Source: Candidatus Anammoximicrobium sp.
Lineage (GTDB): Bacteria > Planctomycetota > Planctomycetia > Pirellulales > Pirellulaceae
Length of the DNA stretch: 53,173 bases
Assembly (NCBI GenBank): GCA_012515235.1
Contig: JAAYYU010000030.1
Location: 1 to 53,173 of the forward strand
Direction: 5' to 3'
The notes beneath the pieces were generated by a model, which was given only the letters and a program-made list of their open reading frames with translations, had not been told where the DNA came from and did no database searches. Every line of letters starts with the position of its first letter. Position 1 is the stretch's first letter. Positions 1 through 53,173 of the stretch are shown one piece after another. Both the position numbers and the translations under genes were made by a program.

Positions 1-160
1 GCCGCCGCGGCCGAAGCGGGGGAGGAAGGACGACGTGGGGCTGCCTCGTGTAGCTGGAAACGGGAGCCTCCACGGGGCAAGCCCGTGGCATCCAACTCAC
101 CAAACCGGAAGCTTCGGCTCGCGCTCATCGGCTGGCTTGTTGGAATGAGGAAGTTATTTC

Positions 161-16549: not shown

Positions 16550-19102
16550 ATGTACGAACGGTTTACTGATCGCGCGCGGAAGGTGATGCAGTTGGCGAAC
16601 CAGGAAGCGCAGCGGTTCAATCATGAATACATCGGCACCGAGCACATCCTGCTGGGACTGGTCAAAGAAGGCAGCGGCGTGGCGGCCAACGTGCTGAAGA
16701 ACCTGGACGTGGATTTGCGCAAGATTCGCCTGGAGGTCGAGAAGCTGGTCCAGAGCGGGCCCGAGATGGTGACGATGGGCAAGCTGCCGCAGACGCCCCG
16801 CGCCAAGAAGGTCATCGAGTACTCGATGGAAGAAGCCCGCAACCTGAACCACAACTACGTCGGCACGGAGCACATCCTGCTGGGCCTGTTGCGCGAGCAG
16901 GAAGGCGTGGCCGCCCAGGTGCTGATGAACCTGGGCCTGAAGCTGGAGGACGTCCGCGAGGAAGTGCTGAATCTGCTGGGCCACGGTTTGGAGGGCGAGG
17001 AAGAGCCGGTCGGCGAACGCGTGGGGCGCGGCGAGGGCCGCGGTGAATCGCGGTCCAAGGGCAAATCGAAAACGCCGGCCCTGGACAGCTTCGGACGCGA
17101 CCTCACCCAGTTGGCGCGGCAGAACAAGCTGGATCCGGTCATCGGGCGGGAACGCGAAATCGAGCGGGCCATCCAGATCCTCTGCCGCCGCACCAAGAAC
17201 AACCCGGTGCTGCTGGGCGAAGCGGGCGTGGGCAAGACGGCGATCGTCGAGGGCTTCGCCCAGCGCGTGGTGAGCGGCAATATCCCGGACCTGTTGTCCG
17301 AAAAGCGGATCGTCGTGCTCGATCTGGCCATGATGGTCGCCGGCACCAAGTACCGCGGCCAGTTCGAGGAGCGGATCAAGGCCGTGATGAACGAAGTCCG
17401 GCGCGCCAAGAACACGATCCTGTTCATCGACGAATTGCACACGCTGGTGGGCGCCGGCGGCGCCGAGGGCGCCATCGACGCGGCCAACGTGCTCAAACCG
17501 GCGCTGGCCCGCGGCGAAATCCAGTGCATCGGGGCCACGACGCTGGACGAATACCGCAAGTACATCGAAAAGGACAACGCCCTGGCCCGCCGCTTTCAGG
17601 AGATCATCGTCGATCCCACCAGCGCCGACGAGACGGTGGCGATTCTCAAAGGCCTGCGGCCGCGCTACGAGGAGCACCATCGCGTCCAGTTCACGGACGA
17701 CGCGCTGGCCGCCGCGGTCGAGTTGTCGGAACGCTACGTCACGTCCCGCTGCCTGCCGGACAAGGCCATCGACGTGATGGACGAGGCCGGCGCCCGCATC
17801 CGCCTGCGGTCCATGACGCGTCCGCCCGACCTGAAGGAAATCGACGACGACGTCGAACGCCTGAACCGCGAGAAAGAGGAAGCCGTCGCCGCCCAGGATT
17901 TTGAAAAGGCGGCGGCGATCCGCGATCAGGCCGACAAGCTCAAAAAGAAGAAGGACCAGATCACCCGCGAATACCGCGAACGGTCCAAGCAGACCGACGG
18001 CGTGGTGGACGCGGAGGTGATCGCCGAGGTCGTCTCGCGCATGACCGGCGTCCCGCTGACGCGGCTGTCGACCGAAGAGAGCCTGCGGCTGATGAAGATG
18101 GAAGAGGAATTGCACAAGCGGGTCGTAAGCCAGGAAAACGCCGTAACGGCGGTGGCCAAGTCGGTGCGCCGCAGTCGCAGCGGCCTGAAAGATCCGCGCC
18201 GCCCGACCGGCTGCTTCGTCTTCGCCGGCCCCACGGGCGTCGGCAAGACGCTGCTGGCCAAGGCGCTGGCCGAGTACCTGTTCGGCGACCAGGACGCGCT
18301 GGTCCATATCGACATGAGCGAGTATGCGGAGAAGCACAACGTCAGCCGCTTGATCGGCGCCCCGCCGGGCTACGTCGGCTACGAAGAGGGCGGCCAGCTG
18401 ACCGAACGCATCCGCCGCCGGCCCTACTCGGTGGTCCTCCTGGACGAAATCGAAAAAGCCCACCCGGAGATCTTCAACACCCTGCTGCAGGTCATGGAGG
18501 AAGGCCGCTTGACGGACGCCTTCGGCCGCAAGGTGGATTTCCGCAACGTGGTGCTGATCATGACCACCAACGCCGGCGCCGAGGCGATCAAGAACGAAGG
18601 CGGCTTCGGCTTCCAGCAACCCGACCGCGACGCCTCCTACGAGAGCATGAAGACTCGCGTCACGGACCAGATCGAAAAAGTCTTCCGACCGGAGTTCCTC
18701 AATCGGCTGGACGACGTCATCGTGTTCCGCCACCTGACGCACGACGATCTGAAGCGCGTGATTGAGATGGAGGTGGTCCAGGTCCGCAAGCGGTTGGCCG
18801 AACGGGGATTCCAGCTGGAACTGACCGACGCCGCCAAGGAGTTCCTGATCAAGGTGGCCTGCAAGGACCTCGATTTTGGCGCCCGTCCGCTGCGCCGCGC
18901 GATCGAGAACCACGTGGAGGACCCGTTGTCCGAGGAGTTGCTGAAAGGCACCTTCCAGGGCAACAACAAGATCATCGTCGACGCGATCCGGGACGACGAG
19001 GGCAAGGTGCGGCGCATCGACTTCCGCGGCGAGACCGTCGAGGCCGCCGAACCCGCCGCGCCCGAAGCGGCGGACGAGCCGGCGCTTGCCGCGGCCACGT
19101 GA
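16550..19102 (+). CDS. clpC: ATP-dependent protease regulatory ATPase ClpC
   Basis: 850 aa. Two Clp N repeats (about 1-150, each with the HILLGLL motif), AAA+ domain 1 with Walker A GEAGVGKT at 223-230, a UVR-type middle coiled coil (about 440-475, [18 protein letters not shown]), AAA+ domain 2 with GPTGVGKT at 560-567, and the ClpB-type D2 small domain. The UVR/middle domain marks ClpC rather than ClpA or ClpB. It unfolds proteins and feeds ClpP. GAGGGG precedes ATG 16550. Confidence 0.95.
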
Positions 19103-23854: not shown

Positions 23855-24041
23855 GAGGCCCCCACGCTGCTTGCCAGCGTGGAGCCGTGTTCAGCACCAG
23901 CCGTCGTCCCAGCCCCTTGGCCTCCGAGGCCACCACGCTGCTTGCCAGCGTGGAGCCGTGTTCAGCACCAGTCGTCGAACCGCTCAATGCGTTCAGCATC
24001 TTGAACACCGCTCCACGCTGGCGAGCAGCGTGGTGGCGAAA
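23855..24041. repeat. Hairpin repeat array, locus 1 (two direct copies and one inverted)
   Basis: Between the convergent ends of the SDR and deacetylase genes. Each copy has arms CCACGCTG and CAGCGTGG around a 5-nt loop, then AGCCGTGTTCAGCACCAG. Copies begin near 23860 and 23931 (71 bp apart). A third, inverted copy lies at 24001-24040 and is identical over 40 of 40 bases to 42336-42375 on the other strand. The remaining bases to 24191 hold no gene I can see. Confidence 0.85.
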
Positions 24042-26447: not shown

Positions 26448-26797
26448 CCGGCATTCGTGGCAAGGCGGCGGCCTGATCCTGAACAAGGCCCCACGCTGGC
26501 AAGCAGCGTGGTGGCCGAAGAGCTCGCGGCGCGGGGCGACGGCGGTTGCGGCGATCCTGAGGAAGCGACGACGTGCGGTCATCCCAAAGTGCTCCTGAGT
26601 TTGAAACGGGGAGCCGTGATTTGCGAAAGATCATGAGGCGCCCGGCGACTGCGAAGGGCATGGCCATGCTTCTGCCTGGGGCGATTGACAAGGCCGCTCC
26701 GGCAGGAAAGACTCCATGCTGTCAGACCGTTGCCTTGGGGTCCCGGCGGCGATGACACGCCGTGCAGACCTCGTCAATCAGAACGGAGGCGCCAATC
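26448..26797. other. Intergenic region with one hairpin repeat
   Basis: 350 bp with no gene. Besides the repeat at 26474-26520, only GGAGG ahead of the next gene is recognisable. Confidence 0.4.
26474..26520 (-). repeat. Single inverted hairpin repeat, locus 2
   Basis: The arms CCACGCTG and CAGCGTGG (here read on the minus strand), preceded by TTCGGCCA and followed by GGGCCTTGTTCAGGATCAG, match the array consensus with few changes. 27 bp after the oxidoreductase stop. Confidence 0.8.
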
Positions 26798-40919: not shown

Positions 40920-42254
40920 ATGCCCCGCCACGCCTGGACACGAAGAGCCTTCTTGCGCACCGCCGCGAGCGGCGCGGTTTCCGGATTCGCCGCGGCCGTC
41001 ATCCCGGCTGCGGCCCTCGGTCGCAGCCGGCTGGCGGCGCCCAGCCAACGGATCACCGTGGGACTGATCGGCGCCGGCCGGCAGTTGTTCTACAAGAACT
41101 GGCCGCAATTCTCCAAGATGCGCGACGTCCAGGTCGTGGCCGTGTGCGACGTGGATGCGTGGCGACTGGCCCAGGTCCACGCCGCGATCGAGAAACATTA
41201 CGCGGCCCAGGGATCGGTGGGCACGCACAGCGGCTGCCGGGCGCATCGCGACTATCGCGAAGTGCTGGACCGCCCAGACATCGACGCCGTGATGATTTCG
41301 ACACCCGACCACTGGCACGTGCCGCTGGCCATCGAGGCGGCTCGGGCGGGCAAGGACGTGTCGCTGGAGAAGCCCATCACGCGGACGATTGCCGAAGGCC
41401 AGCGGCTGATCCGCGCCATGCGCGACGCCCAGCGAGTGTTCCGCGTGGACAGCGAATTCCGCTCGGCCGAAAACTTTCATCGCATGGCGGAACTGGTCCA
41501 CAACGGCCGGATCGGGCAGATCAAGTCGATCCGCGTCGGCGTGCCGGCCGGCGACAACGTCGATGGCCCGCCCACGCCGGACATGCCGGTCCCGGAGGAG
41601 TTGGACTACGAGCGGTGGCAAGGACCCGCGCCGCGGGCGGCCTACACCGTCCTCCGCGTCCATCCCCGCCACGAGTTTGGCCGGCCCGGCTGGATGCGCG
41701 TTCTGGACTACTGCGACGGCATGATCACCAACTGGGGCGCGCATCTGTGCGATATCGCCCAATGGTGCCACGGGACCGAACGCACCGGGCCGGTCGAGAT
41801 CACCGGCGAAGGCGTCTGGCCCCCGCCAGGAAAACTATGGAACGTGCTCAAGACGTTCCGCGTCACCTACCGCTTCGCCGACGGCACGACGCAAGAATAC
41901 GAAACGTCCAAGCCGTACGTGCGGATCGACGGAACGGAAGGCTGGATCTACGGCGAGTTCGGCAAGGGGTTGGACGCCGAGCCGAAGTCGATCCTGACGT
42001 CCCAGATCCAAGACGGCGAAATCCGCTTCCCACTCAAGAGCGACAAACAGGACTTCATCGATGCGGTCAAGACGCGCGGCCGCACGCTGGAGGACGAAGA
42101 GGTCGGTCACCGCACCACGTCGCTGTGCCACCTGGGCCACATCGCCATCCGCCTGGGCCAACCCTTGAAGTTCGATCCGCAGCAGGAACGATTCGTGGAC
42201 CACGACGAGGCCAATGCGTACTTGGACAAACCGATGCCGGCCCGGACGGCCTGA
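40920..42254 (+). CDS. Tat-exported Gfo/Idh/MocA-family oxidoreductase
   Basis: 444 aa, ATG 40920 after AGGGAG. Twin-arginine signal WTRRAFLRTAASGAVSG. Rossmann motif GLIGAGRQ, then AVCDVDAWRL, VMISTPDHWHVPLAIEAARA, LEKPITRTIAEGQRLI with the catalytic-type Lys, and NWGAHLCDIAQW with the substrate His. NAD(P)-linked sugar dehydrogenase fold, here exported with its cofactor folded in. Substrate unknown. Followed by the largest hairpin-repeat array. Confidence 0.88.
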   Translation: MPRHAWTRRAFLRTAASGAVSGFAAAVIPAAALGRSRLAAPSQRITVGLIGAGRQLFYKNWPQFSKMRDVQVVAVCDVDAWRLAQVHAAIEKHYAAQGSVGTHSGCRAHRDYREVLDRPDIDAVMISTPDHWHVPLAIEAARAGKDVSLEKPITRTIAEGQRLIRAMRDAQRVFRVDSEFRSAENFHRMAELVHNGRIGQIKSIRVGVPAGDNVDGPPTPDMPVPEELDYERWQGPAPRAAYTVLRVHPRHEFGRPGWMRVLDYCDGMITNWGAHLCDIAQWCHGTERTGPVEITGEGVWPPPGKLWNVLKTFRVTYRFADGTTQEYETSKPYVRIDGTEGWIYGEFGKGLDAEPKSILTSQIQDGEIRFPLKSDKQDFIDAVKTRGRTLEDEEVGHRTTSLCHLGHIAIRLGQPLKFDPQQERFVDHDEANAYLDKPMPARTA

Positions 42255-42335
42255 AAACGGCGCGCGGACGCAAGCCAAAACGCTCGCCGATTCGCAGGCT
42301 GGAGTCCGCAACGACTTTGCGCCCGTAGCCTCCCC

Positions 42336-42643
42336 TTCGCCACCACGCTGCTCGCCAGCGTGGAGCGGTGTTCAAAACCAGAGACGCCCGCAAAATCCAC
42401 TTCTTCGCCACCACGCTGCTCGCCAGCGTGGAGCGATGTTCAAGACCAGACACGCCCGCAAAATCGACTTTTTCGCCACCACGCTGCTCGCCAGCGTGGA
42501 GCGATGTTCAAAACCAGACACGCCCGCCAAATCGACTTTTCGCCACCACGCTGCTCGCCAGCGTGGAGCGATGTTCAAGACCAGACACGCCCGCAAAATC
42601 CACTTCTTCGCCTCCACGCTGGCAAGCAGCGTAATGGCCCGAA
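42336..42643. repeat. Hairpin repeat array, locus 3 (four direct copies and one inverted)
   Basis: Copies begin at 42341, 42409, 42477 and 42544 (periods 68, 68, 67), then an inverted copy near 42612. Each has the CCACGCTG/CAGCGTGG hairpin (loop CTCGC), then AGCGATGTTCAAGACCAG and a locus-specific spacer ACACGCCCGCAAAATCGAC. The unit length is not a multiple of 3, so it is not a coding repeat. Confidence 0.92.
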
Positions 42644-42722
42644 GAGGAAGCACCCGGCTTGGGCAAAACGCGTGCGGGCCAAGCCGATCGGAAGGGCGCC
42701 TCCGTGGCAACTCAAAGAAAGA

Positions 42723-42751
42723 GCCCCCCGGCAACCGAAGTGCCGGGGGGC
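42723..42751 (-). terminator. Strong minus-strand intrinsic terminator without a gene
   Basis: Perfect 11-bp stem (GCCCCCCGGCA / TGCCGGGGGGC) with a 7-nt loop. On the minus strand it is followed by TCTTTCTTTG. No minus-strand gene precedes it: all genes from 43166 to 48864 are on the plus strand. Confidence 0.7.
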
Positions 42752-43011
42752 CGCACGAATGCACGGTCCCTGCGCCCTTCAAACGACGGGAATCCGTTGC
42801 CCGCCGTGTTCGTCGATCCGCGGCACCGGGACGGATCGAACTCCGTCCGGCGGATGCACGTTGCCTGGCCCAGGCCTGCCGAATCCCTCCTCGTTCGCGA
42901 CAAGGTGCAAGCGTGTCGAACGCCCGCTGGGAAAACGATTTTTTTAGCAAAGCCGACTGCGTGGGCGGCTCCAGGCGAAGCGAAGCTGTCTTGCCCTGCG
43001 CCCGAGGGCAA

Positions 43012-52987: not shown

Positions 52988-53173
52988 CATGCTTAAAACC
53001 AGCTGGCGTCCCGCCACGCTTTCTCCGGCCACCGCGCTGCTGGCCAGCATGGAGCCATGTTCAGAACCAGCCGACGTCCCGCCACGCCCTCTCCGGCCAC
53101 CACGCTGCTTGCCAGCGTGGAGCCATGTTCAGAACCAGCCGACGTCCCGCCGCGCCGTCTCCGGCCACCACGC
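52988..53173. repeat. Hairpin repeat array, locus 4, cut by the window end
   Basis: Units begin at 53023, 53091 and 53159 (period exactly 68), with a partial unit before them from about 52988. Core hairpin as at the other loci; spacer CCGACGTCCCGCCACGCCC is specific to this locus. The array continues beyond 53173. Confidence 0.9.

Follow-up and report, generated by a model that had tools for sequence, protein, structure and literature searches.

Tandem arrays of a REP-type hairpin in a Candidatus Anammoximicrobium genome and their likely spread by a two-domain Y1 transposase

Repetitive extragenic palindromic (REP) repeats and the REP-associated tyrosine transposases (RAYTs) are known to be widespread, and the question is by what path a single-strand transposase that works as a dimer came to be a resident enzyme with a single site. 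Among the closest described systems (papers are cited by PMC number, each for the part of its text that was available), two monomers of the IS608 transposase build the active site together, in trans (PMC5934647), R. baltica carries many tyrosine transposase genes with flanking repeats (PMC3733652), and TnpAY1 class 3 enzymes have about 178 amino acids (aa), an NHVH motif and a CnGA foot (PMC6006769). Here we analysed the hairpin arrays in a 53,173-nucleotide stretch from Candidatus Anammoximicrobium sp. (assembly GCA_012515235.1, contig JAAYYU010000030.1), called the window below, which is the whole of contig C249 in a genome of 9.67 Mb, 417 contigs and 7.57% contamination. The arrays consist of a REP-type hairpin copied locally in tandem. 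Their likely agent of spread is a 259-aa Y1 transposase, the two halves of which are predicted to share a single active site for cutting single-stranded hairpin DNA.

The hairpin arms CCACGCTG and CAGCGTGG, separated by loops of 3 to 30 bases, were found in 441 exact copies in the whole genome, 439 of them with a loop of five (CCACGCTG-N5-CAGCGTGG), while the reversed pattern used as a control gave none. A core shared throughout the genome, as proposed in an earlier note made from the letters of the window, was thus confirmed. The window itself contained 12 matches at up to 3 mismatches, compared to a mean of 0.80 and a maximum of 4 in 100 shuffles; one of the 12, at 17985 with 3 mismatches, was chance-like. 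Both arrays reported in the earlier note were found in place with the same hairpin and a period near 68 (Tandem Repeats Finder gave period 68 at 42335-42621 and at 52997-53173), and the further copies it had placed near 23855-24041 and 26474 were located at 23862, 23933, 24013 and 26491. Among named records, a 24-base piece of the repeat matched exactly in two Pirellula metagenome-assembled genomes.

The anatomy of the unit was determined in 745 kb of the genome, comprising the window, locus L014, 15 hit-bearing stretches and 65 unselected contigs or contig starts. Allowing up to 3 mismatches gave 137 matches; setting aside the 9 that had the full 3 mismatches left 128 copies. The core is an imperfect palindrome with an 8-bp stem, a CTYGY loop, a CA/A (2/1) internal bulge and a 3-bp outer stem, and the unit also has a conserved tail, RTGTTCARRACCAG. 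Three outer-stem types were distinguished, GGC/GCC (type G), CGC/GCG (type C) and CGT/ACG (type T). The outer stem covaries: its three pairs were Watson-Crick in 120, 123 and 125 of 127 copies (368 of 381 cells in total), whereas sliding the partner strand left 56/254 (-2), 69/381 (-1), 115/381 (+1) and 62/381 (+2) paired. Single-stranded DNA folding of one copy per type returned the same structure, with z scores of -3.88, -3.53 and -4.91. Hairpins with the same loop, bulge and tail on a different stem (CGGCGGAG) were also seen at L014 (45-65 and 1462-1482) and L091 (36-56), and this stem is present in the flanks of L024 and L025 too.

The hairpins are placed mostly in tandem arrays with a period of about 68-70 bp. 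Of the 128 copies in the sample, 112 belong to one of 34 same-strand arrays with periods of 65 to 86, mostly 68 (25 intervals) and 70 (25 intervals). Spacer identity within arrays had a median of 0.89 (90 pairs). Between arrays of the same type the medians were 0.69 for type G (625 pairs), 0.63 for type C (523 pairs) and 0.59 for type T (10 pairs); between types the median was 0.52 (1755 pairs), and shuffled same-type spacers gave 0.57. These medians indicate that the repeat unit includes the spacer and that the two spacers contrasted in the earlier note are types C and G. Spacers are therefore alike within a locus, much as had been stated, but the spacer is not private to a locus, and the contrast drawn between loci is one between subtypes, loci of the same subtype being related. 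Local homogenisation of spacers is real and similarity between loci is modest. A CRISPR array was considered and rejected, since unique spacers would be expected rather than the identity found within arrays. Contig ends are rich in repeats: the 33.9 kb of ends held 33 copies and the remaining 616 kb of unselected DNA 23, so that array lengths at the ends are lower bounds.

Within repeat clusters, different types are mixed and both orientations occur, and conserved outer modules flank L079 and L073 on both sides. Another palindrome, GCCGAAATAACTTCCCCGTTTCGGC, with 29 genome copies at up to 3 mismatches (control 0; e.g. C18:14249, C22:65293 and the flanks of L079 and L073), bounds some of the clusters, on both sides in L079, like a composite element. 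Hybrid hairpins, with a type C left flank and, on the right, an inverted type G 5' flank without a tail, were observed at L071 120, L126 7846 and 42614 of the window; they are the joints expected from strand switching at a palindrome.

The genome has 12 matches to PF01797 (Y1_Tnp), two of them in one gene, and one of the 12, on contig C1, has hairpins in its flanks, on both sides. Those upstream lie in one orientation; downstream, three inverted hairpins are followed by more in the first orientation. A search for a RAYT-type transposase, as the earlier note had advised, thus did yield a RAYT-like gene flanked by the same hairpins, but its product is no ordinary RAYT. It is a 259-aa chain with two Y1-transposase domains between which the motifs are split: across 122 proteins of the family (median 273 aa, range 181-347), the N-half keeps Tyr and Gln without the histidine-hydrophobic-histidine (HUH) motif, and the C-half keeps HUH without the Tyr helix. 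Tyr117 was retained in 121 of the 122 proteins, the metal-ligand-like Gln121 in all of them and DHxH in 120. Tyr117 precedes His208 and His210, which sit in the other half, and the Tyr117/Gln121 region aligns, weakly, with the Tyr helix of IS200 transposases. In an AlphaFold prediction each half matches the IS200/IS605 TnpA fold.

The Pfam Y1_Tnp scores of 46.4 and 39 bits exceeded the cut-off of 23, and the C-half carried the better Pfam match. The NCBIfam model of IS200/IS605 TnpA (NF033573) gave 53.5 and 36.8 bits, below its cut-off of 55; with the RAYT model (NF047646), P0002 reached 13.8 bits against a cut-off of 80 and P0001 had no listed match. At E 1e-3 the protein collection yielded 577 homologs of the C1 protein, and many of the best 120 are named RayT by JGI. 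A truncated relative on C18:14569-14910 (L022), 80% identical over residues 1-114 and lying beside two hairpins, may be what is left of a sister copy. Another Y1 enzyme with two domains was observed at C259:13551-14402 of the same genome (G000; L143 1501-2352), with its own hairpin family on both sides; a strict pattern of that repeat has 38 genome copies (control 0).

Relatives of the enzyme were present at E 1e-20 in 26 of 149 genomes of the family and at E 1e-15 in 3 of 392 genomes of a phylum sample, the own genome included in both counts. We examined 33 enzyme loci, 29 from the family search plus L014, L018, L141 and L142, for hairpins within 700 bp of the gene having 8-base arms with at least 7 paired bases and a CYYGY loop. 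Such hairpins were found on both sides at 18 loci and on one side at 7, and they numbered 125 compared to 0.6 in shuffles. The arrangement was inverted for 46 of the 57 upstream and 49 of the 68 downstream hairpins. Stems vary from genome to genome; the 2/1-bulge layout with three outer pairs fitted 72 of 118 hairpins from these loci (own genome excluded), and any other layout tried fitted at most 20. Comparable arrays occur in relatives. Over the 149 genomes, CCACGCTG hairpins numbered 439 here, 6 in G103 and 3 in G024; G028 and G053 each had a single copy, with a different loop. Another stem, CCGCCGAC, had 169 copies in G098 and 38 in G009, each of which has an enzyme flanked by CCGCCGAC (L051 and L029); elsewhere there were 5 copies in the present genome and 1-2 in nine others. 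A third, CCATCGGG, occurred once in G025.

Since the IS608 TnpA site forms in trans across the dimer (PMC5934647), the protein can be read as a fused dimer with one site left. The chain would then act like a TnpA dimer, with Tyr and HUH brought together from opposite halves. It may recognise its target by the CTYGY loop, the 2/1 bulge and the tail on the 3' side, leaving stem bases free to change as long as they pair, and it would nick and rejoin hairpin-bearing strands, thereby seeding new sites. Tandem growth in place could follow from rejoining at neighbouring hairpins or from slippage or unequal recombination, and both fit the data. On balance we favour the view that an IS605-type dimer was fused into a single-chain HUH transposase with one active site, which drives hairpin spread in these planctomycetes instead of a monomeric RAYT, with two diverged lineages side by side in the present genome, each with its own repeats, in which loop, bulge and tail are kept and stems drift freely.

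Several findings weigh against enzyme-driven spread from a shared site. No qualifying hairpin was found within 700 bp at 8 of the 33 enzyme loci, and a contig end cuts a flank in 7 of the 33. The closest enzyme in the family search, at 78% identity, is that of G103, yet this genome has just 6 hairpins of the CCACGCTG type. In G003, 73 CCATCGGG hairpins occur but a search at E 1e-3 found no enzyme, while the 9 copies in G051 are all at the enzyme locus; the G003 hairpins may be orphan repeats, or the enzyme may have been lost or be missing from the assembly. Furthermore, Tyr254 in the C-half is kept as well, in 117 of the 122 proteins, which is compatible with a site formed in cis.

A possible, though rather unlikely, alternative is that the enzyme only seeds repeats or is inactive, and that arrays grow by slippage or unequal recombination between hairpins, independent of a transposase. 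The near-identity of units within an array, the orphan hairpins of G003 and the resemblance of the hybrid hairpins to products of strand switching all agree with it. However, almost every one of the 122 proteins retains the catalytic residues, indicating that the enzyme is under constraint. As this alternative concerns array growth, it is compatible with enzyme-driven spread. An ordinary REP/RAYT system, with a cis site around Tyr254 as nucleophile in the C-half and the N-half as an accessory DNA-binding domain, appears improbable. It would account for the conservation of Tyr254, the JGI names and the better Pfam match of the C-half, but not for the near-invariance of Tyr117 and Gln121 or their alignment with the IS200 Tyr helix; moreover, the C-half ends shortly past Tyr254, a stretch from which Y-xxx-[QN] is absent in 121 of 122 proteins, and in the second family Trp stands at +4 of the C-half Tyr in 113 of 120.

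Little credence can be given to the idea that the hairpins are kept for a job at the RNA level, in transcription termination or mRNA 3'-end protection, both of which the earlier note had raised. Three of the four window loci do start 26-89 bp past the end of a Pfam-supported open reading frame on the + strand, but both orientations occur inside one cluster, and no Rfam family matched in the window apart from a tRNA. Intrinsic terminators (GC hairpin plus T-run) were considered and rejected: in 42100-43000, the region scanned, 3 terminator-like sites were found and none overlapped the array hairpins, the tail of which is RTGTTCARRACCAG. That the arrays are assembly artefacts of one locus is scarcely credible, because, despite the contig-end enrichment and the fragmented, partly contaminated assembly, many arrays, 42336-42643 included, are internal to contigs, where each has flanks of its own and units that differ slightly, and relatives carry comparable arrays.

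The features of the window are listed in Table 1. Its four repeat loci lie beside, not inside, the Pfam-supported open reading frames scanned. The type G array runs into the contig end, so that its copies are a minimum count, and it has partial units on either side, while the type C array is closed by a degenerate inverted hairpin at 42614-42634 (2 mismatches) with a type G flank. The outer-module profile was built from 8 members, that of the window being one, and found 3 further places (E <1e-4), also at hairpins. In the composite the hairpin tails face inward. A near-identical copy of the hairpin at 69-89 was seen at L096 65.

Table 1. Repeat features located in the window
Feature	Position	Strand	Details
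Type G array (outer stem GGC/GCC)	52988..53173	+	Period 68; hairpins 53032-53052 (2 mismatches), 53100-53120
Type C array (outer stem CGC/GCG)	42336..42643	+	Period 67-68; hairpins 42343, 42411, 42479, 42546
Conserved outer module adjoining type C arrays	42247..42342	+	Profile
Composite	23855..24041	.	2 type G on + (23862-23882, 23933-23953), then type C on - (24013-24033)
Single type G hairpin	26491..26511	-	
Lone hairpin resembling second repeat family	69..89	-	7-bp stem, CTTGC loop, tail ending CTA

The apparent fusion of a dimer into one chain, with the loss of one site, would represent a second route to a resident enzyme beside the monomeric RAYT. In addition, hairpins that vary in the stem but retain loop and bulge are ready-made substrates for probing what the enzyme recognises.

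In comparison with the REPtrons formed by RAYTs with REP repeats or bacterial interspersed mosaic elements (PMC2817692, PMC3733652, PMC8266576), the genome shares hundreds of extragenic bulged hairpins, clusters of mixed orientation, tandem reiteration that takes in adjoining DNA, and a gene for a Y1 transposase bracketed by hairpins in inverted orientation. Like a REP element, the hairpin is a short high-copy palindrome outside genes (441 copies, control 0). In contrast, a GTAG foot was found in 0 of 128 copies on either strand, and CGTC at -5 to -2 in 11 of 128, its first three bases being paired in the outer stem. RAYTs are described as having a single domain, in which HUH precedes Tyr, and an NP(L/V)(R/K)xG motif; this last motif was present in 0 of the 122 proteins here.

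With the TnpA of IS200/IS605 elements (IS608, ISDra2) the protein shares the predicted fold of each half and the Tyr-xxx-Gln and HUH motifs. A TnpA monomer, however, has about 150 aa and carries both motifs, which gives two hybrid sites per dimer, whereas here one motif set is split over the two halves of a 259-aa chain. TnpAY1 class 3 (PMC6006769) is likewise found mainly in Planctomycetes, has Y-xxx-Q of the class 1 type, and has hairpin-flanked genes with up to hundreds of hairpins per genome; it differs from the present family in length (median 273 aa here), in NHVH (0 of 122 proteins here) and in CnGA (0 of 128 copies here). No description of a fused two-domain Y1 transposase with split motifs was found in the passages and sections consulted from the open-access PMC library, those of PMC11588811 included. 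According to the available text of the 2018 survey, proteins with HUH and Tyr in the core were taken and unexpectedly long ones discarded (PMC6006769), and under these rules such fused enzymes may have been passed over; members of the family may be present in the supplementary data of PMC3733652 and PMC6006769. The repeats are thus REP-like and the gene is REPtron-like, while the protein departs from RAYT, TnpA and class 3 proteins in defining features that were compared.
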